Source: an uncultured Bacteroidales bacterium
Lineage (GTDB): Bacteria; Bacteroidota; Bacteroidia; Bacteroidales; Paludibacteraceae
Reading direction: 5' to 3'
Assembly: GCA_900319005.1 (NCBI GenBank)
Contig: ONMV01000017.1
Coordinates: 1-52,235, forward strand
DNA: 52,235 nt
Part shown: one piece after another, positions 3,650 to 52,235 of the stretch
Numbering within the stretch: the stretch's first letter is position 1
Layout: each line of letters starts with the position of its first letter
The notes under the pieces: generated by a model
Databases searched by the model: none
What the model saw: the letters and a program-made list of their open reading frames with translations, nothing else
Told to the model about the DNA's origin: nothing
Translations under genes and position numbers: made by a program

Positions 3650-5049
3650 TTAACGGATAGTATATATCTTCGCTTCGCCGCCCTGTACATCCAGATGGTT
3701 GTATGGTTCGGAAGGGAAGACGAGGTTGGTCATCGACCAAGCACCTTCGGCATCAAACGCCTCAATCGAACAATGGTCGATAAAGAGGAGGACTTTGTAT
3801 GTATCACGTTTGACGAAGAGCGGCGCTACCGTGCGTGCTGCAAAATCATGGGAGAAAGAGCAATCGCCCGAAGCAGTACGATCCATGGAGAAGGTACGTC
3901 GGTGCACATCCAGGTTCATGACCACTTTCTCCCCTTTGTCGTTGGAGAGAGTGATGAGCGCATCCTGCTTGCCGTCCAGCTCCAGTTCGACGATACCGGC
4001 ATCCGGCAGGTATCTGGTCTCCTCGCCACGAAGCGCCAGAGACTCCGGAGAAGGTACAGAACCCAGACGATACTCGCCTTCGTCATCCGTAAAGAGGAAG
4101 AGATCGCGGGCGATAGTATTCTGCGAACGGAAAGCGACGGTAGGAACGACTTCTGCGTACTGCCAGTTAGACATCCATCCCATGGCTACCAAACGGCCAT
4201 CAGGGGAGTTATGGAAAGTGAAAGTGGAGTAATTGTCCTTGCCGTAGTCGAGCCAATTCATTTGTCCATTTTCACATTTACCATTTTCACATTTAAACTC
4301 CTTGCCGTCCCAGTCGCCTATGAAATACTGGGTAGCCGAGCCGCCAAACGGTCCACCGGGGTTGATGGAAACGAGGAGGACGTATTTGTCATTTGACATT
4401 TGACATTTGACATTTGACATTTTCAACAGTTCCGGGCATTCCCAAACACCACCATGAGCGCCTACTCCTTTGCCAAAGGACGAGAGATACGTCCACTCCT
4501 TGAGGTTCGGCGAAGCATAGAAACGGATCTCCTGCTGGCAAGCGAGCGTCATCAGCCAATGGTCACCATCCCAAGTCACTTTCGGATCACGAAAGTCGGC
4601 GATATCACCCATCAGAACGGGGTTGCCTTCGTACTTGGTAAAGGTATAGCCGCCGTCGGTGCTATACGCGATAGACTGGTGCTGCCCGATGACTTCCGAC
4701 TGCGTATAGATCGCTACGATAGCGTTCTCTCCGAAACCGGCGGTGTTGTTCCTATCTATGACTGCCGAGCCGGAGAAGATCGTCATGTCAGAAGGTCGGT
4801 TGAAGTGGCATGTCCCCAGTGCATCGGTCCCCAGGTAGTACCAAAGGGATTGTGCTGGTAGTAGAGTTGCCATACGCCGTTCGCCTCGTCGTAGAACATA
4901 CCATTGGGGTCGTTCATCCAGTTCGCCTGCGGCGTGTGGTGATAGACCGAACGGAAAGGTTCGTCGGTGGGATGGGTTGACGGCTTCCCGGCACAACCCG
5001 CCAACAGCACCGTCGCCGACAGCCATCCAAAAAGAAGGTGTTTTGTCAT
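3650..5049 (-). pseudogene. GH32 fructan hydrolase lipoprotein, frameshifted by a deletion
   Basis: The gene starts at 5049 with a lipoprotein signal (MTKHLLFGWLSATVLLAGC). The nucleophile motif WMNDPNG and the segment HATSTDLLT follow, and this frame then stops near 4783. GH32 continues in another frame with IFSGSAVID, the RDP motif (FRDPKVTW), the acid/base motif ECPELL and the C-terminal beta-sandwich, ending at 3650. The WExLPxALxPD stretch normally found between DLLT and IFSG, about 13 residues, is absent, so a small deletion with a frame change is the simplest reading. Two in-frame phrase insertions are also present: 4258-4297 codes FKCENGKCENGQMN, and 4386-4424 codes MSNVKCQMSNDK. If intact it would be an exo-acting beta-fructosidase of the inulinase/levanase family. 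Confidence 0.8.
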
Positions 5050-22162: not shown

Positions 22163-23394
22163 TTATGGGTGTTTTCTCCATAAATTCTGTCTTTGGTTTA
22201 TTTTCCTTTGCTAGAGTTTGATGAGCCCTAACTGAAGTTAGGGCAACTTAACGAAGAGGGATGATTCTTCGTTCTGTTCGCGGGAGTTTAGTTCCGCGTT
22301 TCCTTCTGCGTTTCCCGCTGCGTTCCGTGTTCCGTTAGGGTGATGCTGGCTATGTCCGCGGCGTAGCTGTTCATGTCGAGGCATTGCGAGCGCGTGATAC
22401 GCGCTGCTGACGTTTCTTGGCTATAGTCCGCGTACGGTGCTAAGACCAACATAAAGCCGTCCGTACAGCCGGTTAGATCTCTGCCGGAGGGATAGATAAA
22501 TTTCCCGTCTAATCCGCGGTTGACGATATGTATCATCCGCAGTCTCTCCTTATAAGCGGCTTCATAGACCGCTTTCTCCGCAGGAGAGATGAACGGCGAT
22601 ACCAGAACAGCTCCGCGGCGGGCTTCCTTGAGGTACATCTCCACTTCGGCTTGTATCTGCTCTTCCGTCAGATTACGATGGCAACGCACTTGGAGTCTTT
22701 CAGGGTACTTCACCATGAACGTATTCCCCACCGCAGTATAGGGATGTCCCTGCTTGCCTGCCTTGAAGTCATAGATCTTCCGCAACCTGTCAGGATAATG
22801 AACCTTGAGCCATAACCGCCGAGGGTTATCATCCAGATAGTTTATCCATGCCTCTTTCTGCCCTTTATGGAAGAGTATCTTATCATTAAACCCTGCTGAG
22901 AAGAGGGAGTCTTTCTCCGTGTTTTCCCTCCAATACGCGTGTGTGCAATCGCTCTTCCAAGTTGCGATGAGTCTGCCTAGTGACCATCCTTTCGGCAGCG
23001 GGTCTCTGACATAGAGCATCCCGTGAAAATGATCCGGCATAATCTTATAATGGAGAACCTGAACGCGGCTACCTGTTTTCTTGGTTGTCTCTGCCGCCAT
23101 TGTTCGAAAAGCTTGCGCCACGTATAGACCCAATGGAGTCGGTTCTATGTCCGCCTCTTCAGGAGAGCCGCCCACCAGCGTGCCTAAGAGGCGCTTGCGC
23201 TCCATGGTAGTCACCGTGATCAGGTAGATGCAAGCAGAAGCGTAGTCATGTCCCTCTTTCCGCTGTAATCTATTATGGTTTATGGGTGTTTTCTCCATAA
23301 ATTCTGTCTTTGGTTTATTTTCTTTTGATAGAGTTTGATGAGCCCTAACTGAAGTTAGGGCAACTTAACGAAGAGGGATGATTCTTCGTTCTGT
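22163..23394. mobile_element. RAYT-type transposase module between 115-bp direct repeats
   Basis: Two direct repeats, 22163-22277 and 23280-23394, are identical at 113 of 115 bases as far as I can align them. Each contains a perfect palindrome GCCCTAACT-GA-AGTTAGGGC (22225-22244; 23342-23361), the shape of a REP sequence. The right copy also contains the start codon and first residues of the transposase, so the left copy carries an orphan duplicate of that start. The module could be a transposase with its target REPs or the remains of a tandem duplication. Confidence 0.65.
22288..23298 (-). CDS. IS200-like / REP-associated tyrosine transposase
   Basis: This 336-residue Y1 transposase has the HUH metal motif PDHFHGML near residue 110 and the helix with the likely catalytic Tyr in WINYLDDNPRRLWLK, about residue 175. 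The N-terminus ACIYLITVTTMERKRLLG matches the family. It is longer than most RAYT proteins, with an extra C-terminal region (residues about 230-336) that I cannot assign. It lacks a partner tnpB. Such proteins cut and move single-stranded REP hairpins, and hairpins are present in both flanks. The stop codon lies inside a second hairpin, CGCGGGAGTTTAGTTCCGCG (22279-22298), which closely resembles one in the hairpin arrays at 49.2 and 51.7 kb. Confidence 0.82.
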   Translation of the reverse strand: MEKTPINHNRLQRKEGHDYASACIYLITVTTMERKRLLGTLVGGSPEEADIEPTPLGLYVAQAFRTMAAETTKKTGSRVQVLHYKIMPDHFHGMLYVRDPLPKGWSLGRLIATWKSDCTHAYWRENTEKDSLFSAGFNDKILFHKGQKEAWINYLDDNPRRLWLKVHYPDRLRKIYDFKAGKQGHPYTAVGNTFMVKYPERLQVRCHRNLTEEQIQAEVEMYLKEARRGAVLVSPFISPAEKAVYEAAYKERLRMIHIVNRGLDGKFIYPSGRDLTGCTDGFMLVLAPYADYSQETSAARITRSQCLDMNSYAADIASITLTEHGTQRETQKETRN

Positions 23395-32378: not shown

Positions 32379-33122
32379 ATGAAATTTATTGGTATCATAC
32401 CGGCACGCTATGGTTCAACCCGTTTTCCGGGCAAGCCCTTAGCAGACATATGCGGCAAGACCGTCATCCGGCGTGTTTATGAGCAAGCCTCCATGGCTCT
32501 CGACACCGTGGTAGTAGCTACCGACGATGACCGCATCTACGATGCAGTGGAGATTTTCCACGGTAAGGTGGTCATGACGAGTCCTAACCATACCTGCGGT
32601 ACCGAACGCTGTCTGGAGGCCTATAATGCAATCACTACCCCTATATGGAGGGAGCAGAACGGGACAGACACCGTCATCATTAATATTCAAGGCGACGAAC
32701 CCTTCATCCAGCCGGAACAGATAGAAGCACTCATGGCATGTTTTAACCGTCCGGATACAGACATAGCCACTCTTGTACAACCGTTCGCGGAGGATAAAGA
32801 CGCCATCGAGAATCCCAACTCGCCCAAAGTGAATTGGGACACAGAGACCCAAGAAGCGAAGCTATTCTCCCGCAAAGTGATCGCTGCTTCCGACGGCAAG
32901 TATTACAAACACATCGGTATATACGCTTACCGCGCAGATGTCCTGAGCAAAATAACCACCTTACCGCAGAGCCCGCTGGAGAAAGCCGAGCGCTTGGAAC
33001 AACTCCGATGGCTCGAGAACGGATACAAGATCCGTGTGGGTGTGACCTCACAATCCACCATTGGTATCGATACGCCCGAAGACCTCGAGAAAGCCATCGA
33101 ATGGTACAGATATAATGGATAA
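32379..33122 (+). CDS. kdsB: 3-deoxy-manno-octulosonate cytidylyltransferase
   Basis: This 247-residue cytoplasmic enzyme activates KDO with CTP to CMP-KDO for lipopolysaccharide core synthesis. The N-terminal nucleotide-binding motif IIPARYGSTRFPGKPLADI, the VVVATDDDRI strand, NIQGDEPF (metal and substrate binding) and the ending LEKAIEWYR are typical. The length is normal and the start is the ATG 8 bases after mfd. The stop is followed at once by five copies of the phrase TTGAAAA (33121-33160). Confidence 0.95.
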   Translation: MKFIGIIPARYGSTRFPGKPLADICGKTVIRRVYEQASMALDTVVVATDDDRIYDAVEIFHGKVVMTSPNHTCGTERCLEAYNAITTPIWREQNGTDTVIINIQGDEPFIQPEQIEALMACFNRPDTDIATLVQPFAEDKDAIENPNSPKVNWDTETQEAKLFSRKVIAASDGKYYKHIGIYAYRADVLSKITTLPQSPLEKAERLEQLRWLENGYKIRVGVTSQSTIGIDTPEDLEKAIEWYRYNG

Positions 33123-33162
33123 TTGAAAATTGAAAATTGAAAATTGAAAATTGAAAATCATA
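33121..33162. repeat. AATTGAAAATTGAAA phrase array
   Basis: About five perfect tandem copies of ATTGAAA with one extra A fill the spacer between kdsB and deoD. The same phrase appears at the end of the N-acetyltransferase gene near 39.79 kb. Confidence 0.75.
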
Positions 33163-39325: not shown

Positions 39326-39778
39326 TTATCGTATTCTGTCTGCAGCGCGTACAAGCGCTTCATCCTTGAGGATGCGACGCGTAGCCATTAGGGTTAATAC
39401 CATGCAAATCAATGGGAACGAAGCATATGGCAGAATATGCCATTCTACGTTCATACTCATCTTTGCTAACCAAATATACAATGCCAATACTCCGTAATAA
39501 CCAAGACAGAGCATCACCAGGAATATATTCAGCCGAGCCTGCAAGATTCGTTTTTTATAGAGGAAGATATCCACAAATGCCAAAAAAGGGATGAGTATCG
39601 TCGTCAGGAGGAGTCCCCATACACCTTGTAGCGGTGCACCGCCTAAGGCACCCAATTCCCATACTTGCAGCATTTCCGCCTCTTCGGGCGTTACTAATTG
39701 CACTACCGGAAGCCAGATCAGGGCGATGCCTAAAGCCACAACAGCCAATAAATAAAGTGTCTGAATTCGTTGTATCAT
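39326..39778 (-). CDS. DUF4293-type membrane protein
   Basis: This 150-residue protein has four transmembrane helices (LYLLAVVALGIALIWLPVV, LLTTILIPFLAFVDIFLYK, MLCLGYYGVLALYIWLA, ASFPLICMVLTLMATRR). It starts MIQRIQTLYLLAV, typical for DUF4293, a family limited to Bacteroidota and without a known function. It lies three bases from mscS and shares its transcript. Confidence 0.75.
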   Translation of the reverse strand: MIQRIQTLYLLAVVALGIALIWLPVVQLVTPEEAEMLQVWELGALGGAPLQGVWGLLLTTILIPFLAFVDIFLYKKRILQARLNIFLVMLCLGYYGVLALYIWLAKMSMNVEWHILPYASFPLICMVLTLMATRRILKDEALVRAADRIR

Positions 39779-39812
39779 CTTTCAATTTTCAATTTTCAAT
39801 TTTCAACTTTCA
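39779..39812. repeat. TTTCAATTTTCAATTTTCAA phrase tract
   Basis: Four tandem TTTCAAT-type units lie between DUF4293 and the acetyltransferase. The tract codes the last residues (KVEN) and the stop of the acetyltransferase, so its translation ends inside the repeat. Confidence 0.65.
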
Positions 39813-43866: not shown

Positions 43867-45500
43867 AGAATAGTGCATCCCTCGCACGGCTTCAACTGTT
43901 TGAAGAAATCATTTCCCTTATCATCAACGAGGATGAATGCCGGGAAGTTCTCCACCTCGATTTTCCAAATCGCCTCCATGCCGAGTTCGGGGTACTCCAC
44001 GCACTCGATGGATTTGATATTGTTCTGTGCCAGGATAGCTGCAGGACCACCGATTGAACCGAGATAGAAACCGCCGTGTTTCTGACATGCGTTGGTCACG
44101 TCAATCGAGCGGTTACCCTTTGCGAGCATGATCAGCGAACCGCCGTTCTCCTGGAACTCATCTACATACGGATCCATACGACCTGCCGTCGTCGGACCCA
44201 TCGAGCCGCAAGCCATGCCTGCAGGAGTCTTCGCCGGACCGGCATAGTAGATCGGGTGGTTCTTGAGGTACTCCGGCATCGGTTCGCCTGCATCCAGTCG
44301 CGCTTTAATCTTCGCATGTGCGATGTCACGACCAACGATGATGGTGCCGTTCAGGCTCAGACGCGTACCGATCGGGTATTTCGTCAGAATAGCACATACA
44401 TCTTTCATCGGCTGATTGAGGTCGATACGTACGGCATCGCCTTCACCTGCTTGACGCAGCTCCTCGGGGATGAGAGAAGCGGGGTTGTTATCCAACTTCT
44501 CAATCCATATACCGTCTTTGTTGATCTTACATTTGATGTTTCGGTCAGCCGAGCAGCTTACGCCCAGACCAATCGGGCAGCTCGCACCGTGACGAGGCAG
44601 ACGAACGACACGTACGTCGTGCGCCATGTACTTACCGCCGAATTGTGCACCCAGACCGATCTTGTACGCCTCCTGCAGGAGTTGCTTCTCCAACTCCACA
44701 TCGCGGAAAGCACGACCTGTCTCATCGCCCGTCGTCGGCAGCGAGTCGTAATAATGGGTCGAAGCGAGCTTCACGGTCAGCAGATTCTTCTCGGCACTCG
44801 TTCCGCCGATGACGATAGCAATATGGTAAGGCGGACAAGCTGCCGTTCCGAGGCTCTTCATCTTCTCCACAAGGAAAGGAATGAGCGTACCGGGGTTCTG
44901 GATACGCGCCTTGGTCTCCTGATAGAGATAGGTCTTGTTCGCACTACCGCCACCCTTGGTCACGCAAAGGAAACGGTACTCGTTGCCCTCGGTAGCCTCC
45001 AAGTCAATCTGAGCAGGGAGGTTACATTTGGTGTTCACCTCGTCGTACATATTCAGCGGCGCGTTCTGCGAATAGCGCAGATTGCACTCCGTATAGGTGT
45101 TATACACACCGCGGCTCAACGCCTCCTCATCGCAGAAGCCTGTCCATACTTCCTGTCCTTTTTCTCCGTGAATAATTGCCGTACCGGTATCTTGGCAGAG
45201 GGGTAATTGACCTTTGCATGCCACTTCAGCATTGCGCAGAAAAGTCAAAGCTACATATTTATCGTTTGCCGAAGCCTCCGGGTCACGCAATATCTTTGCC
45301 ACCTGCTCATTATGCGAGCGACGGAGCATAAAACTCACGTCATGGAAAGCTTGCTGGGCCATCAGCGTCAATCCCTCCGGCTGCACTTTTAATATCTCGT
45401 GTCCTTCAAACTCGCCGACCGACACATAGTCCTTTGTCAGCAGATAATACTCCGTCTCGTCCTTGCCGAGTTGAAACATCGGCGCATACTTAAATTCCAT
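43860..45500 (-). CDS. Class I fumarate hydratase (fumarase)
   Basis: This cytoplasmic 4Fe-4S fumarase has 546 residues from the ATG at 45500 ([10 protein letters not shown]); an ATG 34 codons upstream is open but lies on the upstream side of the promoter. It interconverts fumarate and malate. Conserved parts include ICxGQ-like [19 protein letters not shown] (first cluster Cys), [48 protein letters not shown] and the C-terminal half with [20 protein letters not shown]. Length matches the two-domain form. It has its own promoter. Confidence 0.93.
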
Positions 45501-45541
45501 ATTCTTTTCAAAGATTAAACCATTTAACTTAAATTGGGCTG

Positions 45542-45573
45542 CAAAGATACAACATTTTTTGCATATATGCAAG
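45542..45573 (-). promoter_or_regulatory. Fumarase promoter
   Basis: On the minus strand CTTGCATATATGC begins at 45573 and TATCTTTG at 45549, 24 bases apart. Confidence 0.7.
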
Positions 45574-45588
45574 ATTTTCGCCAAAAAA

Positions 45589-45620
45589 TTTGCACATGTC
45601 AAAAAAATACTGTACTTTTG
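45589..45620 (+). promoter_or_regulatory. DUF2147 promoter
   Basis: TTTGCACATGTC at 45589-45600 and TACTTTTG at 45613-45620, again 24 bases apart. It is divergent from the fumarase promoter, with the two -33 boxes separated by 15 bases. Confidence 0.7.
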
Positions 45621-45639
45621 TGGTCAAATTTGCAAATAT

Positions 45640-46089
45640 ATGACACATATGAAACACAGATTGATGGGATTATCCCTTTTGATGATGCTGAGCCTCTCGG
45701 TCTTCGGACAAGTCAGCTCCATGCTCGGAGAATGGATCACAGTTGATGACAAAACCGGAGAAAAACGTTCCGTTGTAACGCTCTATCAAGGCAAAGACGG
45801 ACTCTATTACGGAGCGCTTTCACAGTTGCTCATCGGGGACCGAAACGCCATTTGCACACTCTGCCCCAATGAGGACAAAAACAAACCCGTGGAAGGACTT
45901 GTTATCATTCGCGCCATGAAGTATAACGAGAAAGACAACCAACTGCAAGAAGGCAGAGTATTGGATCCCGAATCGGGCAACTTCTATTATGGTAAGATTT
46001 ACCTGAAAGACGGCAAACTGATTCTCCGCGGATCGATTGACAAACGCGGTTTCATAGGTCGCAACCAAACTTGGATTCGTAAAAAATAG
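45640..46089 (+). CDS. DUF2147-family secreted protein
   Basis: This 149-residue protein, from the ATG at 45640, has a signal peptide MTHMKHRLMGLSLLMMLSL. It is followed by a lipocalin-like beta-barrel domain with LGEWITVDDKTGEKRSVVTL and GKIYLKDGKLILRGSIDKRG, the core of DUF2147. Function unknown. It has its own promoter 20 bases upstream, and it may share a transcript with the DUF389 gene that follows 17 bases later. Confidence 0.8.
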   Translation: MTHMKHRLMGLSLLMMLSLSVFGQVSSMLGEWITVDDKTGEKRSVVTLYQGKDGLYYGALSQLLIGDRNAICTLCPNEDKNKPVEGLVIIRAMKYNEKDNQLQEGRVLDPESGNFYYGKIYLKDGKLILRGSIDKRGFIGRNQTWIRKK

Positions 46090-46106
46090 ACTGCTATATA
46101 CCTCCC

Positions 46107-47420
46107 ATGACGTACGCTCAATTCATGCAACGTGCGAAGCATTTTCTTCGCAAGCAACTGAGTCTGACGCACTATATCGACGTGCAGGCGGCAGAAACGA
46201 ACATCCGGCAGAATATACCTTTCCGCGGACCAAATATCTACATCTTGTTCGTAGCGATTATCATCGCTTCGGTGGGTCTGAACGTAAACTCTATACCGGT
46301 TATCATCGGCGCGATGTTAATCTCTCCGCTGATGAGCCCGATCATCGGTTTTGGGATGGGGTTGGGAACCAACGATACACAATTGATCATCAAATCGCTC
46401 AAACACCTCAGCATCATGTTTGTGGTCAGTTTGGTTGCCTCTACCCTCTATTTCATGGTGACACCGCTGGAGATGGACAACCCGACCGAACTGTTAGCAC
46501 GTACGAACCCTTCCGTTTATGACGTGCTCATTGCTTTCTTTGGAGGTATCGCCGGTATATTGGAACTATCCCGCAAGGAGAAAGGAACGGTGATGTCCGG
46601 AGTAGCGATTGCAACCGCACTAATGCCGCCTTTGTGCACGGTTGGGTACGGTATCGCCAATTGGAATTGGCACTATGCCGGAGGGGCTTTGTATTTGTTC
46701 TTCATCAACTGCATCTTCATCGCCTTAGCTACTTTCCTTGCCGTTAAATATCTGCATTTCCCCTCCAAGATAGAGAAGAAATCCTATAAGAGTCTGATCA
46801 CCTATGGTGTGCTCATTTTAGTCGTTCTTATTCCCAGTTTCTTCAGCGCTTATAGCATCGTGCTGGAGAACCAGTTCGCTAATGCTGCACGCCATTTCGT
46901 CAAAGAAGACCAATCCATCGGAGGCACTTATATCTATGATTACACCACCGATGTGACGGTCAGACCCTATACGCTCACCCTCCGTCTCGCCGGGGAGCAA
47001 CTCAGCAACGACAATCGCGCACAACTATACGCCGACGCCGGGAAACACGGCATCTCACATACACAAATCCGCATTGTAGAGGACGCTACAATCGAGATCC
47101 GACGCCTCAACGAGACCGAGGTCATGAAAGATTGGCTGGCTTCCACCGAGGAAAAACTAAAGGAGCGGGACGACTCCATCCGAGTACTCAATGCGCAGAT
47201 TGAACGCTTCAAAGCCCAACAACTGCCTGTGGAGCAAATCTGTTCCGAAGTGAAAGCCCAGTGGCCCCAGATAACAGATGTCACGCTGGCGAGCAACGAG
47301 AAACAGATTGTGATCATTGTTCATGCCAAACCCGTTCTCAAGATAGACGACCAACAGCGAATCAAACACTGGCTCTCCGTGCGTCTGCAAAATGAGAACG
47401 TACTGGTTGTTGCACAATAA
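46107..47420 (+). CDS. DUF389 membrane protein (TIGR00341-type)
   Basis: This 437-residue inner-membrane protein has about six hydrophobic helices. It includes the family core VAIIIASVGLNVNSIPVIIG, AMLISPLMSPIIGFGMGL and GVAIATALMPPLCTVGYG, and a soluble C-terminal part from about residue 250 with a coiled stretch (EKLKERDDSIRVLNAQIERF). Members are proposed transporters or stress proteins without a firm assignment. It lies between DUF2147 and DUF3667. Confidence 0.85.
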   Translation: MTYAQFMQRAKHFLRKQLSLTHYIDVQAAETNIRQNIPFRGPNIYILFVAIIIASVGLNVNSIPVIIGAMLISPLMSPIIGFGMGLGTNDTQLIIKSLKHLSIMFVVSLVASTLYFMVTPLEMDNPTELLARTNPSVYDVLIAFFGGIAGILELSRKEKGTVMSGVAIATALMPPLCTVGYGIANWNWHYAGGALYLFFINCIFIALATFLAVKYLHFPSKIEKKSYKSLITYGVLILVVLIPSFFSAYSIVLENQFANAARHFVKEDQSIGGTYIYDYTTDVTVRPYTLTLRLAGEQLSNDNRAQLYADAGKHGISHTQIRIVEDATIEIRRLNETEVMKDWLASTEEKLKERDDSIRVLNAQIERFKAQQLPVEQICSEVKAQWPQITDVTLASNEKQIVIIVHAKPVLKIDDQQRIKHWLSVRLQNENVLVVAQ

Positions 47421-47425
47421 ACAAT

Positions 47426-48235
47426 ATGAATCTTTGCAAGAATATCAAACAAGGCATTTCCTCCTATTGGCGCTCTTTTAGAGCCTGGCAGGAACATCCT
47501 GTTTCATACAGGATGGACGAGAATGAACATGTCTGTAATAACTGCGGGCACACTTTTCGTGGCAATTATTGTCCGGTGTGCTCGCAATCCGCTCGTCACG
47601 GTCGCATCTCATGGACAGCTATTTGGCAGGGCATAGCGCAGTTATGGGGTATCGAATCGCGGTCAGCCGTTTATACGTTGTGGCAGTTGTTCTTGCGTCC
47701 CGGCTATCTGGTACGCGACTACATCAGCGGCAAACGGCAAGTCAGTTATCCTCCGGTGAAGCTGCTCTTCATCTTGGCGGCTGTTGTCACGCTCGCTCGG
47801 TATTTTTTTCCTGTTCCGACTGCTGAACCTTCCCATCTTGGTTTCAAGTATCTGGATTGGGCTTCCGATTGGCTCAGCAATCATGAAAACATTAGTGAAT
47901 TACTCACTGGTTGTGTGTTCGTTTTACCAACATGGTTCCTCTTCCGCAAAGCACCGAACTATCCGAATCACACCATCCCGGAAGGCTTCTATTTGCAGGT
48001 GTATTTAGCGATACTCTCGTTTATCTTTTACTCCATATTCTTCGGACACAACGGCATTGCCTTGACGCTTACTTTATGCTATTATTTCATGGCATACAAG
48101 CAACTTTTCGGTTTCAGTTTTTGGGGTACGTTATGGCGATTGACAATATGTGTTGTGCTGGGGTTCACGGCTATGCTCCTAATTGCCATGTGCTTTTTAA
48201 TACCGATGTTTTTGCAAAGCGGAAAGACAATTTGA
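47426..48235 (+). CDS. DUF3667 zinc-ribbon membrane protein
   Basis: This 269-residue protein has an N-terminal zinc ribbon with CNNCGHTFRGNYCPVCSQSA (two CxxC pairs), a soluble helix, and four or five transmembrane helices in the C-terminal two thirds (PPVKLLFILAAVVTLARYFF, LLTGCVFVLPTWFLFR, LAILSFIFYSIFFGHNGIAL, WRLTICVVLGFTAMLLIAMC). This layout is typical of Bacteroidota DUF3667 proteins of unknown role. It starts 5 bases after DUF389. Confidence 0.82.
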   Translation: MNLCKNIKQGISSYWRSFRAWQEHPVSYRMDENEHVCNNCGHTFRGNYCPVCSQSARHGRISWTAIWQGIAQLWGIESRSAVYTLWQLFLRPGYLVRDYISGKRQVSYPPVKLLFILAAVVTLARYFFPVPTAEPSHLGFKYLDWASDWLSNHENISELLTGCVFVLPTWFLFRKAPNYPNHTIPEGFYLQVYLAILSFIFYSIFFGHNGIALTLTLCYYFMAYKQLFGFSFWGTLWRLTICVVLGFTAMLLIAMCFLIPMFLQSGKTI

Positions 48236-48256
48236 TATATTACAGAAGAAGTTAAA

Positions 48257-49101
48257 ATGAACTCTATAAAAATAACAAAGTCATTCTCCTTACCGGCGCG
48301 AGTAGCGGTATCGGTTATGACACCGCGGTTGCGTTGGCGCAACAGGGACACAAAGTGTATGCGGCAGCGCGGCGTGTAGAGCGCATGGAGCCTCTTCGTC
48401 AGTACGGCATCGTGCCTCTGAAGATGGACGTGACCGATGAAGCATCGATGCAGGAGGGCGTGAAGACGCTTCTGGATGCCGAAGGACGCATCGATGTGCT
48501 TATCAATAACGCCGGCTATGGTTATTTTGGGGCAGTAGAGAATGTGCCAATGAATGATGCCCGTAATCAGTTAGAAGTCAATGTGTTTGGCCTCGCTCGC
48601 CTTTGCCAGTTAGTGCTGCCAACGATGCGTGCCCAGCATAGCGGACGTATCATCAATACGGCTTCGGTGGCAGGCAAGGCGGTCTTCTATTACGGCGGTT
48701 GGTATCATGTGTCCAAGTATGCCGTGGAGTCGCTTAGTGATGCGATGCGCATGGAACTCAAGCCGTTTGGCATCGATGTGGTCATCATCGAACCGGGTGC
48801 TATCAAAACCAATTGGGGTATCATTGCCGCCGATCACCTCATTGAGTCCTCGAAAGGAACGGCTTATGAACAGACAGGAACGATGATGGCGAACAACCTG
48901 CGGAACATGTATCTTTCCAATACTATTTCCGATCCGGCTGTGGTACGCAAAGCGATTGTTCGTGCGGTCAATGCACGCCGTCCTTGTACCCGTTACCGTA
49001 TAGGTCGGATGGCGAACGCGATTGTCTTCTTCCATTGGCTGCTTCCCACACGCTGGTGGGATGCCTTCCTTCGCCTCATGGGAAAACGTAAATTGATGTA
49101 A
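48257..49101 (+). pseudogene. Short-chain dehydrogenase, N-terminus frameshifted at a run of A
   Basis: The Rossmann-fold protein has the NAD(P) motif VILLTGASSGIGYDTA, the NNAGYGYFG motif and the catalytic Ser/Tyr/Lys set in INTASVAGKAVFYYGGWYHVSKYA. A strong ATG lies at 48257 (MNSIK), but the run of five A at about 48270 puts it one base out of frame with TGASSGIG. One more A would give MNSIKNNKVILLTG. No other in-frame ATG or plausible start precedes the Rossmann motif, and a TTG at 48334 would omit it. This is a sequencing error, a phase-variable tract or an inactivated gene. The substrate is unknown. Confidence 0.75.
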
Positions 49102-49211
49102 ATCCCCGAGCAGTTACTTCTTAAAACTTGCTGGTAATTTTAGCGTCTATGCGTCGCGTATCCATGCGCGCCTTGGATTCTGTCCTTTTCTTCCATTCCG
49201 CGGGATGCCAT
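49102..49211. other. Spacer before the hairpin array, no gene seen
   Basis: About 110 bases contain palindrome-like words (GCGTCGCGTATCCATGCGCG, ATTCCGCGGGAT) of the type that continues in the array. No coding frame is supported here. Confidence 0.4.
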
Positions 49212-49464
49212 CTGGCTTTTTCTTCGTCTCGTTCGCGGTACTTTAGTGCCGCGTTTTTCTTCGTCTATTTCGTCGGATAACATCCGACACCTTCGTGATC
49301 ACCTAATCACGTGAGCACGTGGTAACGATTTCTTTCTTCTTTTTCCCTGCATTTGATGCCGGCTGTTTCTCGCGTCCCTGCATCGTGCATTGATGCGCGA
49401 TTTGTATTACGTCTCTGACATGGAACAAAGCTCCGCTTTTTCTATGTCCATTGTGTCGGATGTT
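49212..49464. repeat. Hairpin array, left copy
   Basis: A series of short hairpins is joined by pyrimidine-rich links such as TTTTTCTTCGTC. In order they are CGCGGTACTTTAGTGCCGCG (49234-49253, followed by T5), GTCGGAT-AAC-ATCCGAC (49272-49288), CGTGAT-CACCTA-ATCACG (49294-49311), CACGTGAGCACGTG (49308-49321), a degenerate GCATTTGATGC, GCATC-GTGCATT-GATGC (49380-49396) and GTCGGAT-GTT-ATCCGAC (49455-49471). The last is the reverse complement of the second. The right copy follows almost exactly the same order. Confidence 0.85.
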
Positions 49465-49518
49465 ATCCGACGATTTTTACAGAAAATCCCATTTTCATTA
49501 CTTTTCTATCCCACAAAA

Positions 49519-49550
49519 TTTGCATATATCAAAAAAAATGCGTACCTTTG
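49519..49550 (+). promoter_or_regulatory. Cassette promoter
   Basis: TTTGCATATATC at 49519-49530 and TACCTTTG at 49543-49550, 24 bases apart. Transcription would start near 49557 and read through the structured leader towards the two genes. Confidence 0.7.
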
Positions 49551-49556
49551 CAACCG

Positions 49557-49760
49557 AATTTGCAAAAACGATAGAACATCCATGAGTAGTCTCATAACTC
49601 TATCCGACTCAAATTGAGGGGACCATGCCGAGTATTGAAGAAATCGAAAACGAGTTGAACAATACAAAATAATACACGTCCCTCTCCGAGACGTCAACCT
49701 ATATAAAATAAATAATCTATCGGCCAATCTTGACCGATTAAAAATAAAAACCAAAACACC
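49557..49760 (+). ncRNA. Structured leader region with two tiny open frames
   Basis: Just after the promoter a nested hairpin GATAGA/TCTATC encloses ATGAG/CTCAT (49570-49604). An 11-codon frame (49582-49617) overlaps it and a 15-codon frame MPSIEEIENELNNTK follows (49625-49672). Further hairpins are ACGTC/GACGT (49676-49694) and ATCGG/CCGAT (49719-49738). The short frames have no known match; they may be leader peptides or chance. Confidence 0.35.
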
Positions 49761-49820
49761 GCCTATGGCATAAAACAACAGACAAACAACATACATAAAT
49801 ACAGCGTAATAAGCCGATAC

Positions 49821-49959
49821 TTGGTTCCCTTGAAACCTGAACAACTTCAAGAAATCATTAATTACTCAAGCCACGGTTTATGCACGCTCACGTATCAGCG
49901 TGAGTTTTCCGTGCATAGATTTGAGTAATTAAGGTAAGTTCAGGACCTCAAGGAACCAA
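49821..49959 (+). ncRNA. Rod-shaped inverted repeat upstream of the two cassette genes
   Basis: Nested perfect pairings form a long rod: TTGGTTCC(C)TTGA (49821-49833) with TCAAGGAACCAA (49948-49959); CCTGAAC (49836-49842) with GTTCAGG (49938-49944); TTAATTACTCAA (49858-49869) with TTGAGTAATTAA (49921-49932); TATGCACG (49879-49886) with CGTGCATA (49910-49917); CTCACG (49887-49892) with CGTGAG (49899-49904) around a TATCAG loop. Some 42 of 139 positions on each side pair. Candidates are a 6S-like regulatory RNA, a cassette RNA or a DNA recombination site. Confidence 0.55.
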
Positions 49960-49972
49960 ATCGAAGCGAACG

Positions 49973-49995
49973 AAAGCGCACGCTTTTATTGTTTT
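49973..49995 (+). terminator. Weak terminator after the rod
   Basis: The short stem AAAGC/GCTTT (49973-49977 with 49982-49986) is followed by TTATTGTTTT, 32 bases before the first cassette gene. It could end an RNA that begins upstream. Confidence 0.35.
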
Positions 49996-50026
49996 AGTCA
50001 AGTAATACAAATAAATACCTTAAAAT

Positions 50027-50542
50027 ATGTCCACTTCTAATCTATTTTATTCTATTCGTCTTTTATCGGAAACTAAACATTATTCCGATGTAGTACAAGA
50101 AATACTATCCATAGTACTTCAAAAATATAGTGTAAGCACAATTTTGTTTTTAGATTATATAGATGCTCATGGTATCCAATTGAAGGATATAAAAGGGCAA
50201 ACGATGGATGTAATTTTAGATTATGCAGAGCTTATACTGGAAGATGACTACTTGTCCGATATAGAGATCCAAAATATTCGTATTTTAAGGAATTTCTTCT
50301 GCATAGAGGATGGTGAGTTCTTAGAATATGGTAAACGCGAACGAGTAGAATCTATACTTGTTGAACAATTGGAAAAACTATATGCAGATAATAAAATCGA
50401 CAAAGACGAAATGCTACACAAGAGTGAATTGCAGGGATTATTTGGTCTCGGTTATGATGATTACCAAGAAATCGTTAACAAAGTTGCAATAGAAGCATAT
50501 TCGCGAGGAGCAGATATTAGAGATTTGGATACATATTTATAG
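50027..50542 (+). CDS. Unrecognised helical protein (TerB-like halves)
   Basis: This 171-residue soluble protein is rich in Leu, Glu, Asp and Lys, with no signal or membrane segment. The segments DDYLSDIEIQNIRILRNFFC and LYADNKIDKDEMLHKSELQG, the latter followed by LFGLGYDDYQEIV, look like two helical halves with acidic turns, as in TerB-type proteins; this is a weak resemblance. It is A/T-rich and is followed 6 bases later by the DUF4236 gene, so the two form one operon. Function unknown; the cassette setting and structured RNA suggest a mobile or defence-related role, but nothing shows this directly. Confidence 0.65.
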   Translation: MSTSNLFYSIRLLSETKHYSDVVQEILSIVLQKYSVSTILFLDYIDAHGIQLKDIKGQTMDVILDYAELILEDDYLSDIEIQNIRILRNFFCIEDGEFLEYGKRERVESILVEQLEKLYADNKIDKDEMLHKSELQGLFGLGYDDYQEIVNKVAIEAYSRGADIRDLDTYL

Positions 50543-50548
50543 AAAATT

Positions 50549-51640
50549 ATGGCGTGGATTTTTCGCAAAAGAAAAAAGTTATTACCGGGTGTCCATTTGA
50601 ACTATGGATCAAGTGGACTCAGTCTTAATGTGGGAGTTCCTGGCGCAAGCGTAACGTTAGGAAAAGATGGCGTTTATGCTAATACTGGATTACCTGGAAC
50701 AGGTATTCGCAATAGACAAAAGGTTGCAACGACAGAACCCCAATGCTCTGAAAATATTCAAATAACAGAAAAAGATATTAAACGTGCAGGATGTTTACGA
50801 AACTTATTATACTATTTCTGTTATCTTTTCAGCTATGCTATTATAATAACACTTTGGCTCGTAACGGGTTACACATATTCTTCTGAGAATTATTACTATT
50901 TAATACCTGCAGCCTTTGAATTGTTTTTCATTATAAATACCATGCGTTTGCATTTATATCATCATCGAAGTAACGTGTCATCTTCTCTTATATTCCCTAT
51001 TGTTTTATCGATATTATTCATGTCTTTATTTTCTTTATCGGCTACTATAATATATTTTTTTGAGAATGAACCGGTTGTTTGGTCGTGTTTGGTTATGCTG
51101 GATATGATATTGGCTTATAATCTATATGTCTGTTTTAAATACAGGGTAAAAAGAGAACATAGAGAGCAAAAAATTACTGAAGTTGTTCATGCAGCAAACA
51201 ATACATCATACACAGCAAGTGCGTTTTCGAAATCATGCTTAGATACCTCAACTGTTAATAGACCTATAATTACTCAAAATTTTGCGGGTTCGAAAAGCAG
51301 CACTTCAGTAAGTCGTTCTCTTTATGTACCCAATATTGATTATACGCAAGAAGGTGTTTTGTTCTTTACTCAAAGTCGTGTGCGAAAAGAGTTGACGCGA
51401 ATATACTCTTCAGAATTTATTGATGTATGCGCTTATGTCATTAGTGTCGAAAAATGCGTCTTATCGGACATTCAAGCAGAATTAGGTCTTTCATATCAAA
51501 AAGTACTAGAAGCAGTTAAACTTTTAGAGAAAACGCATATTATTAAAACAGAAGGTACTCGACGCAAAGTTATGATTACAGATGAAACAACTGCAATTAG
51601 ACTTTTATTACGTTACGCGAGTGAAAACTATTACGAATAA
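50549..51640 (+). CDS. DUF4236 protein with membrane helices and C-terminal winged helix
   Basis: This 363-residue protein has three parts. Residues 1-60 are a clear DUF4236 domain (IFRKRKKLLPGVHLNYGSSG, LSLNVGVPGASVTLGKDGVY, ANTGLPGTGIRNR). Four transmembrane helices follow between about 90 and 205 (LLYYFCYLFSYAIIITLWLV, NYYYLIPAAFELFFIINTMR, SLIFPIVLSILFMSLFSLSA, VVWSCLVMLDMILAYNLYVC). The C-terminal 95 residues (VRKELTRIYSSEFIDVCAYV, CVLSDIQAELGLSYQKVLEA, LLEKTHIIKTEGTRRKVMIT) form a winged-helix domain similar to the FtsK gamma type. The combination suggests a membrane protein that touches DNA or acts in response to it. Function unknown. Confidence 0.7.
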   Translation: MAWIFRKRKKLLPGVHLNYGSSGLSLNVGVPGASVTLGKDGVYANTGLPGTGIRNRQKVATTEPQCSENIQITEKDIKRAGCLRNLLYYFCYLFSYAIIITLWLVTGYTYSSENYYYLIPAAFELFFIINTMRLHLYHHRSNVSSSLIFPIVLSILFMSLFSLSATIIYFFENEPVVWSCLVMLDMILAYNLYVCFKYRVKREHREQKITEVVHAANNTSYTASAFSKSCLDTSTVNRPIITQNFAGSKSSTSVSRSLYVPNIDYTQEGVLFFTQSRVRKELTRIYSSEFIDVCAYVISVEKCVLSDIQAELGLSYQKVLEAVKLLEKTHIIKTEGTRRKVMITDETTAIRLLLRYASENYYE

Positions 51641-51710
51641 TTATTTTATTCTATCGATAACCCGATAACTCGATCTCTCGGAACTCCAGTCTGCTCCACC
51701 ACAGAGCAGG
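51641..51710. other. Short spacer before the right array
   Basis: This short stretch ends with GCTCCACCACAGAGCAGGCTGGC, which reads as a hairpin-like continuation of the array. No gene is supported. Confidence 0.3.
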
Positions 51711-51960
51711 CTGGCTTTTTCTTCGTCTCGTTCGCGGTACTTTAGTGCCGCGTTTTTCTTCGTTCCTTTCGTCGGATAACATCCGACACCTTCGTGATCA
51801 CCTAATCACGTGAGCACGTGGTAACGATTTCTTTCTTCTTTTCCCCGGCATCTGATGCCGGCTGTTTCTCGCGTTCCTGCATCGTGCATTGATGCGCGAT
51901 TTGTATTACGTCTCTGACACGGAACAAAGCTCCGTTTTTTCTTCCGTTACGTCGGATGTT
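51711..51960. repeat. Hairpin array, right copy
   Basis: This copy matches the left one in order and nearly in sequence, with a few differences. Here the GCATC hairpin is perfect (CCGGCATC-T-GATGCCGG, 51845-51861), while the left copy has lost it, and the last hairpin (GTCGGATGTTCTCTGAC) is damaged. The reciprocal differences show two independently evolving copies. Confidence 0.85.
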
Positions 51961-52054
51961 CTCTGACTCGACGAGGTCGGGCTTTGCAGGGGTTCACAAG
52001 TTCCGCATTAGTACCTAATACCGTAGCCCTTCCAATCCCTAACGCGGGAAAAGC
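51961..52054. other. Spacer between array and the HxlR gene
   Basis: Further palindrome-like words follow the array: CTCGACGAG (about 51967) and ATTAG-TAC-CTAAT (about 52007-52019). No coding frame or clear terminator is visible. Confidence 0.35.
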
Positions 52055-52235
52055 TTACACCTCGAACTGCTGACGATGCTTCATGATCGTCGGCAGGTTC
52101 TTGGATGCCCATTCAGTCAATTCTTGCACGATGGGTACCAGTTCCTTGCCCATCGGCGAGAGGCTGTACTCCACGCGAGGAGGAATCTCCGGATAAACTT
52201 TGCGGACGATGAGGTCATCCGCTTCGAGCGTGCGC
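52055..52235 (-). CDS. HxlR-family transcriptional regulator, C-terminal part (cut by window end)
   Basis: Only the last 60 residues are present. They read RTLEADDLIVRKVYPEIPPR, VEYSLSPMGKELVPIVQELT and EWASKNLPTIMKHRQQFEV, the typical wing and C-terminal helix of HxlR winged-helix regulators. The N-terminal half lies outside the window. Its partner gene is also outside. Confidence 0.85.
   Translation of the reverse strand, partial: RTLEADDLIVRKVYPEIPPRVEYSLSPMGKELVPIVQELTEWASKNLPTIMKHRQQFEV

Follow-up and report, generated by a model that had tools for sequence, protein, structure and literature searches.

Several described systems share features with the locus analyzed here. The DUF805b RNA (Rfam RF02914) is typed by Rfam as cis-regulatory, and leader attenuators and riboswitches are likewise structured RNAs upstream of start codons; repetitive extragenic palindromic (REP) sequences and bacterial interspersed mosaic elements (BIMEs) are dispersed, short GC-rich hairpins that occur with RAYT transposases; integrons, whose cassettes carry attC sites, favour toxin-type cargo; and His-Xaa-Ser (Hxs) radical SAM operons may contain a K channel and an AAA ATPase. 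The DNA in question is contig ONMV01000017.1 of assembly GCA_900319005.1, from an uncultured gut bacterium of the Bacteroidales (Paludibacteraceae), and the window is this whole stretch of 52,235 nt. Near its right end, two AT-rich genes follow a long hairpin that we call the rod. We see about an even chance that the block around them (49175-52027) is an inserted operon, belonging to a family that occupies several places in its own genome, in which the rod is a cis-acting leader and the genes on both sides of it are exchanged.

The rod as a structured RNA

The rod (49796-49994, plus strand) was recognized by its fold (z = -8.23), by a covariance model, and by covariation. For 18 copies (alignment A1, loci from the best sequence matches plus copies in the same genome), 51 pairs were predicted, 15 of them with changes on both sides. 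In the 88 rows of alignment A2, 26 of the 51 pairs had changes on both sides and 97.2% of the cells paired; covariation was 0.293, against 0.107 in shuffles, and none of 500 shuffles reached it. A2 includes eight antisense shadows of the palindrome, which were kept for covariation and dropped for the count of G-U and A-C cells. In the 80 sense copies, 363 G-U cells were found versus 33 A-C cells, and because the former so far exceed the latter, selection acts on the sense RNA. Changes on both sides occurred in 37 of the 51 pairs among 23 divergent copies (20 from 15 genomes outside the genus and three from the genome itself, in an alignment, A8, that was fitted to the model); their covariation was 0.555, compared with 0.195 in shuffles (0/500 reaching it) and at most 0.093 when slid. 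The compensatory base changes go beyond the controls, and the rod is a structured RNA without an Rfam 15 family: no match lay over it in window 45000-52235, where the only hit was a sub-threshold S15 match inside the second gene, nor over the rod in 31 further rod loci (20 searched at an E-value of 3 and 11 at 0.1).

Within the genus, the covariance model detects the rod in 163 of 178 genomes, including 63 of the 68 good ones, with up to 12 copies per genome, and across the order in 42 of 393 sampled genomes representing 28 of 206 genera; its E-values are approximate, and for the order as a whole only a small number of candidates was scored in each genome. The exact core occurs in 92 stretches, and the 80 named records listed among them belong to Bacteroidales or Paludibacteraceae, with three from one metagenome-assembled genome titled Bacteroidia, and many are from ruminants by title. 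Virus-borne rods were rejected as far as the exact core pattern tells, there being none in IMG/VR. Judged by title, none of the papers listed in literature searches deals with the rod RNA or these operons. A long structured RNA with such strong covariation, spread over 28 sampled genera and without an Rfam 15 family, would be a new class of regulator in gut Bacteroidales.

The DUF805b RNA was found 3' of the rod in four of the 20 genus loci scanned. It also occurs in locus L268, from a different genus, and L269 gave a match below the threshold. By eye, the leaders of L153-L232 contain repeated small modules before the rod, namely CACCGACAGCGTAAAAAAGCGGTG, a variable GGCGCAAGCGTGCGCC hairpin, and a pseudoknot-like CGTC..GACGTTAAA..GGAGGACAT; in L163 and L179, the small modules stand behind a tRNA-like sequence.

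Genes on both sides of the rod

A same-strand open reading frame (ORF) of at least 100 amino acids started within 300 nt behind the rod at 64 of 68 loci; the corresponding counts were 18 of 74 for the divergent side and 21 of 41 for a background position. Ten further rods lie 192 nt or less from the end of their sequence stretch. At these 64 loci, the rod is thus in sense with a gene start just behind it, the arrangement of a cis-regulatory leader, and the downstream ORF chosen started within 120 nt of the rod in 61 of 70 cases. Signal-peptide-like starts, called by a crude custom script, were present in 37 of 48 downstream clusters versus 16 of 52 control and 4 of 52 upstream clusters, so that the genes behind the rod mostly look secreted; their families include BspA-type leucine-rich repeats and FG-GAP.

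On the other side, an ORF of at least 70 amino acids ended within 350 nt of the rod on the same strand at 63 of 80 loci, with ten in the opposite orientation and seven loci having none. At least 22 of the 52 upstream clusters are of toxin, antirepressor, or nuclease type (PIN, HEPN, HepT, Fic, ParE, KilA-N, RhuM, ORF6N, YhcG, AlbA_2, DUF3990, DUF4160), a figure obtained from member matches (two members for each of nine families, plus ORF6N, PIN_12, AlbA_2, and HepT) that are assumed to represent 22 separate clusters, the members being unlisted. A further scan added four clusters (zeta, NTP_transf, AbiEii, and DUF2442), and others are ordinary genes (sufB-like, ftsK-like, and a tRNA synthetase). 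Among the matches listed for the controls, at least one of 52 ORFs was of toxin type (YhcG/DUF1016); these 52 were drawn from 110 control ORFs, three of the first 55 having been skipped and the remainder left unused. The place in front of the rod is here called the slot. Homologues of 32 slot genes judged to be toxin- or defence-like accounted for 38 of the 66 slot ORFs, compared with 7 of the 198 remaining ORFs in the 3.5 kb upstream, none of 298 ORFs elsewhere, and 1 of 16 ORFs overlapping the rod; since the query set was drawn from the slot itself, these counts show concentration and not an independent rate. The slot could serve as a fixed landmark for finding exchangeable toxin- or defence-like genes.

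The rod remains at the sufB locus while the content of the slot changes between species: L155 and L175 have an empty slot of 49 nt, and different genes fill it in L166, L165, L167, L187, L206, L191, and L202. L212 was set aside from this comparison, as its sufB is 2 kb off and its downstream gene is another one. Conversely, L211 and L218 have a common KilA-N gene and rods that are 92.5% identical, with different downstream genes. Mean rod identity was 82.0% in 70 pairs of loci sharing only the downstream gene, 81.1% in eight pairs sharing only the upstream gene, and 77.1% in 1449 pairs sharing neither; rods at least 92% alike occurred in ten of the 70 and in one of the eight. Because the sufB slots vary, L211 and L218 differ downstream, and the identities tie the rod to neither neighbor, genes change on both sides of the rod.

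In the window, the slot is preceded by a script-detected motif, TTTG-N20-TACCTTTG (49519-49550, plus strand), which resembles promoters of the Bacteroidetes type; similar promoter-like pieces stand before the accessory gene on contig C35 of the same genome and in genome G033, and before the leader on C14. The slot itself holds what is left of a DUF1016/YhcG gene, a piece of its 3' end (49625-49672, plus strand): the blastn alignment with genome G016 begins at 49638, inside the 3' coding end of the YhcG gene there, and the part before 49638 presumably belongs to the remnant as well. The leader module (49677-49801, plus strand) is common to other loci and is 91% identical to C14:39925-40049. Leader and rod together are 86% identical to G016 (49638-49992), 87% to G033 (49667-49992), and 86% to C35 (49740-50017). 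Behind the two cargo genes, an intrinsic terminator, its hairpin read from the sequence, was placed at 51686-51720 (plus strand) in a repeat at 51645-51727; the region of about 51650-51723 recurs behind the operons of G016, G033, and C35 at 85%, 76%, and 85%, respectively. Besides two weak copies of the terminator, the genome has four strong ones, each of which sits behind a rod and two cargo genes.

These four frames differ in what they enclose. The window frame has the DUF1016 remnant in its slot and cargo of 171 and 363 amino acids; that of C35 has a RhuM gene in the slot and cargo consisting of a 121-amino-acid protein and a 374-amino-acid PKD protein, both with lipoprotein-like starts; that of C14 has an empty slot, a 178-amino-acid gene before the promoter, and cargo of 182 and 547 amino acids; and that of C26 has an AbiEii gene before the promoter, short reading frames between promoter and leader, and cargo of 635 and 283 amino acids. 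The rods score 218, 207, 81, and 26 bits in the window, C35, C14, and C26. Because the C26 rod is degenerate and lies 469 nt from its cargo, only three of the four frames are counted as clean. Outside this genome, G016 and G033 carry C35-type cargo behind a YhcG/DUF1016 gene and an AlbA_2 gene, the latter named from the identical sequence of L228. The shared frame is thus a leader, rod, and terminator around different two-gene cargoes at four places in the genome, three of them cleanly.

As we picture such an operon, a promoter would be followed by the accessory-gene slot (here, the DUF1016 remnant), the leader, the rod, two cargo genes, the terminator, and often a hairpin array; the rod would be co-transcribed with the cargo and act on it in cis. 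A cis-acting leader RNA is the most likely role of the rod, judged from sequence and gene order. A CGC- or CGT-type end followed by a T-run was present in 79 of the 80 genus copies and in all 21 divergent ones, and the 5' end of the rod can pair with the T-run, which suggests an oversized attenuator. The 3' U-run and the A-rich 5' end suggest, more specifically, that the attenuation may be conditional, with read-through of transcription under some signal, and the rod is perhaps a conditional attenuator of this kind. The genes on either side would be exchanged, and the repeated leader, terminator, and arrays may supply the homology for the recombination involved.

Several observations weigh against this reading. 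The closing A/U helix lacks covariation support, as 197 of 500 shuffles reach its score. In addition, 15 of 70 loci have a promoter-like motif no more than 200 nt downstream of the rod, and at these loci a leader function is in doubt; because of these two results, attenuation is a step that we infer. Rod identity does not tell which of its two neighboring genes the rod moves with, the C26 frame has a degenerate rod and a gene order broken by a promoter, and C35 has no array-type hairpins behind its terminator. A wider proposal, which we hold only tentatively and think somewhat unlikely, is that an order-wide Bacteroidales RNA regulator gates mostly surface-protein genes and marks an upstream slot of exchanged toxin-, antirepressor-, or defence-like genes. 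If that were true, expression sites for exchangeable genes would form a family across the genus, defined by a single RNA.

The inserted block, its arrays, and rival explanations

Genome G022 (contig C82) has an exact empty site, in which the counterpart of window 49100-49174 (100% identical) directly abuts that of 52028-52235 (97%). Because these flanks stand in direct contact, the 2.85-kb block 49175-52027 (no strand assigned), which contains both hairpin arrays and the two AT-rich genes and has no counterpart in G022, is the unit of difference. The empty junction reads CCTTCCTT, and CCTT stands at each window junction (49171-49174 and 52028-52031). The neighbors of the block are kept in G022, a short-chain dehydrogenase at 98.8% identity and a regulator, HxlR-type by likeness, at 98.3%. 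In a comparison of the dehydrogenase with 15 other loci of the genus (L106-L120, with 281 to about 1500 nt of downstream flank), the regulator adjoins it in G022 only, and because of this the gain or loss of the block was left unpolarised; we infer a gain in the window genome and not a loss from G022. The cargo has a GC content of 0.335 versus 0.494 for window 1-49100, and its genes are rare in relatives: counting the genome itself, the 171-amino-acid protein was found in 4 of 101 genomes and parts of the second gene in 7 of 101. The block is supported as an inserted, exchangeable unit, present in one species and absent in another. A first-pass annotation of the window had proposed a mobile or exchangeable unit of a base composition unlike that of the core genes, and the empty site, the rare genes, the other gene pairs in the same leader-rod-terminator frame, and the measured GC contents bear it out.

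That annotation had also taken two direct copies of a hairpin array to be the frame of the unit. The copies themselves, around two genes, a promoter-like motif, and the rod, were all recovered by computation: the left array (49212-49475) and the right array (51711-51967), both on the plus strand, were delimited by direct-repeat comparison and hairpin count, with 232 nt at 96% identity (49212-49443 and 51711-51942), extending to 264 nt at 93%. Both are mosaics, built of short hairpins and T-rich spacers. The two arrays contain three and four perfect hairpins with stems of at least 6, where dinucleotide shuffles give 0.31 and 0.26, but because other 325-bp tiles of the window reach a maximum of five (mean 0.77), hairpins are not confined to the arrays. 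Pieces of array are scattered through the genome and, as the annotation had proposed to check, occur in relatives (30 of 101 genomes, its own counted). The framing role fared less well. The empty site that had been looked for exists in G022, but without any copy of the array instead of with one, and no array-flanked genes, hence no other gene contents between the same arrays, were found in five array loci (L077-L081, five of nine fetched stretches with array pieces) searched for direct repeats of at least 40 nt, one locus having two promoter-like repeats and another a tandem repeat. The interpretation therefore stands as to an inserted, exchangeable block and falls as to the two arrays as its frame. 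Because the array spacer motif was met only twice around 80 rods, arrays are distinct from rods in the genus, and an array-flanked cassette as a genus-wide design was rejected on this count and on the absence of array-flanked genes in L077-L081. Array-type hairpins do follow the shared terminator on C15, on C14, and in G033, and briefly on C26 and in G016.

A family search found two Y1_Tnp genes in the genome, on C30 and C34. The window itself holds a third gene, RAYT-like, at 22288-23298 (minus strand), which is 42% identical to the C30 gene over 291 columns and falls below the Pfam cut-off. An array-type unit, CGCGGnAnTTTAGTnCCGCG, stands at its 3' end and elsewhere in the window only in the two arrays, which hints at a connection between RAYT and arrays. 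At 22163-23394, the same gene is flanked by two 115-bp direct repeats, 98% identical, that include the start codon region, and the C34 gene (L246, G000:C34) has palindromes of the CTCGGCAT..ATGCCGAG type beside and inside its own coding sequence. Elsewhere (L082, G000:C25), a ATCGYGCATNNATGCRCGAT-type palindrome occurs at 4953 and 8458 inside two ORFs that resemble RsmH and MurE, named by likeness, where it encodes in frame the similar peptides DRALMHDAK and DRAFMHDAK. Inverted copies of a TTGAAAA-type repeat lie 6.6 kb apart in the window, at 33118-33156 and 39775-39812.

Two alternatives give the arrays the leading part. The array hairpins may be REP-like elements moved in trans by a Y1 (RAYT) protein that also moved the gene pair between two arrays; the genome does have three Y1/RAYT-like genes, that of the window ending in an array-type unit and lying between the 115-bp repeats, and that of C34 accompanied by other palindromes. 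However, the empty site carries no array copy, none of the five other array loci has an array-flanked gene, and RAYTs are not known to transport genes, so that we judge this distinctly unlikely. Alternatively, a circle with one array and the genes could have recombined with a resident array, leaving two direct copies, and the 96% copies around a block of foreign composition, together with the dispersal of array pieces, are what homologous recombination or circle integration of this kind would give. The resident array it calls for is, however, missing from the G022 site, and because divergence between the two arrays is 4% whereas the left flank of the window species matches that of G022 at 75 of 75 positions, the array pair is probably older than the insertion; circle integration is therefore also unlikely in our view.

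The other two alternatives concern the rod. Were it an attC-like folded DNA site, with slot genes as cassettes inserted beside it, an imperfect palindrome conserved by structure next to a slot rich in toxin-type genes would be expected, as would loci such as L211 and L218, with one upstream gene, different downstream genes, and closely similar rods. Yet the excess of G-U over A-C cells on one strand points to RNA, and rods are single, with conserved loops, which leaves an integron-like site very unlikely. Equally improbable is a noncoding mobile element, similar to a miniature inverted-repeat transposable element, that inserts upstream of genes: many copies per genome upstream of unrelated genes agree with it, but 64 of 68 loci have a gene start just behind the rod, and a functionless parasite would not keep compensatory changes and conservation that extend across families. 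An inserted operon with the rod as its leader is the reading that we prefer.

Cargo genes and comparison with known systems

The first cargo gene (50027-50542, plus strand) encodes a helical protein of 171 amino acids without a family, and the second (50549-51640, plus strand) a DUF4236-transmembrane-FtsK_gamma-like protein of 363 amino acids; a 171-residue unknown protein and a DUF4236-membrane-winged-helix protein had been predicted, and both ORFs agree, with DUF4236 at an E-value of 3.8e-19. FtsK_gamma is weak in the window protein (E 0.089) and strong in two of its relatives (3.7e-22 and 2.9e-19). Relatives have an additional AAA ATPase domain; the window protein keeps the DUF4236, membrane, and winged-helix parts without it. 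The structural model of the first protein is helical (predicted local distance difference test, pLDDT, 84.8) and had no match in the PDB at an E-value of 0.001 or better; that of the second is poor (pLDDT 49.6). No transposase family was found in the cargo genes by family scan, and as far as these two scanned genes tell, the block is not a composite transposon, in which the flanking copies encode a transposase. Against the PADLOC defence models, the window genes gave weak matches only, the best at an E-value of 0.0041.

Homologues of the 171-amino-acid protein in G003, G007, and G041 precede ion-channel-type genes. In G003 and G007, a gene for a long protein that combines FtsK_gamma and AAA domains comes after the channel gene; in G041, the genes behind the homologue were read by likeness, and the long one runs off the contig. 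Further on in G007 are an endonuclease gene and genes for HxsA (below the cut-off), HxsD, HxsB, and HxsC, and by likeness G055 and G021 look like this G007 operon. The operon in L073 (7106-15001, G007:C31) comprises a K-channel-type gene, a DUF4236-FtsK_gamma-AAA protein, a DNA/RNA non-specific endonuclease, and His-Xaa-Ser radical SAM genes; the operons of L075 and L076 resemble it by likeness, and against PADLOC it gave only partial-domain matches such as IetA and pVip.

Set beside the described systems, the locus resembles each in part. The Hxs radical SAM operons with a K channel and an AAA ATPase (G007, and G055 and G021 by likeness) contain relatives of the two cargo genes or of domains found in them, whereas the window pair has no channel, AAA domain, nuclease, or Hxs genes. 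As with REP and BIME sequences, short GC-rich hairpins are dispersed in a genome that has RAYT genes, one of them ending in an array-type hairpin; the arrays differ in being ordered mosaics with T-rich CTTCGTTC spacers. Integron cassettes share with the rod loci a variable, toxin-rich slot beside an imperfect palindrome, but rods are single, dispersed sites with G-U pairs of RNA type. Like leader attenuators and riboswitches, the rod is a structured RNA upstream of start codons with a U-run at its end; unlike them, it is long and stands before very different genes. The DUF805b RNA, finally, is also of cis-regulatory type and adjoins the 3' side of the rod in several leaders, but it spans 35 positions and has a sequence and fold other than those of the rod.

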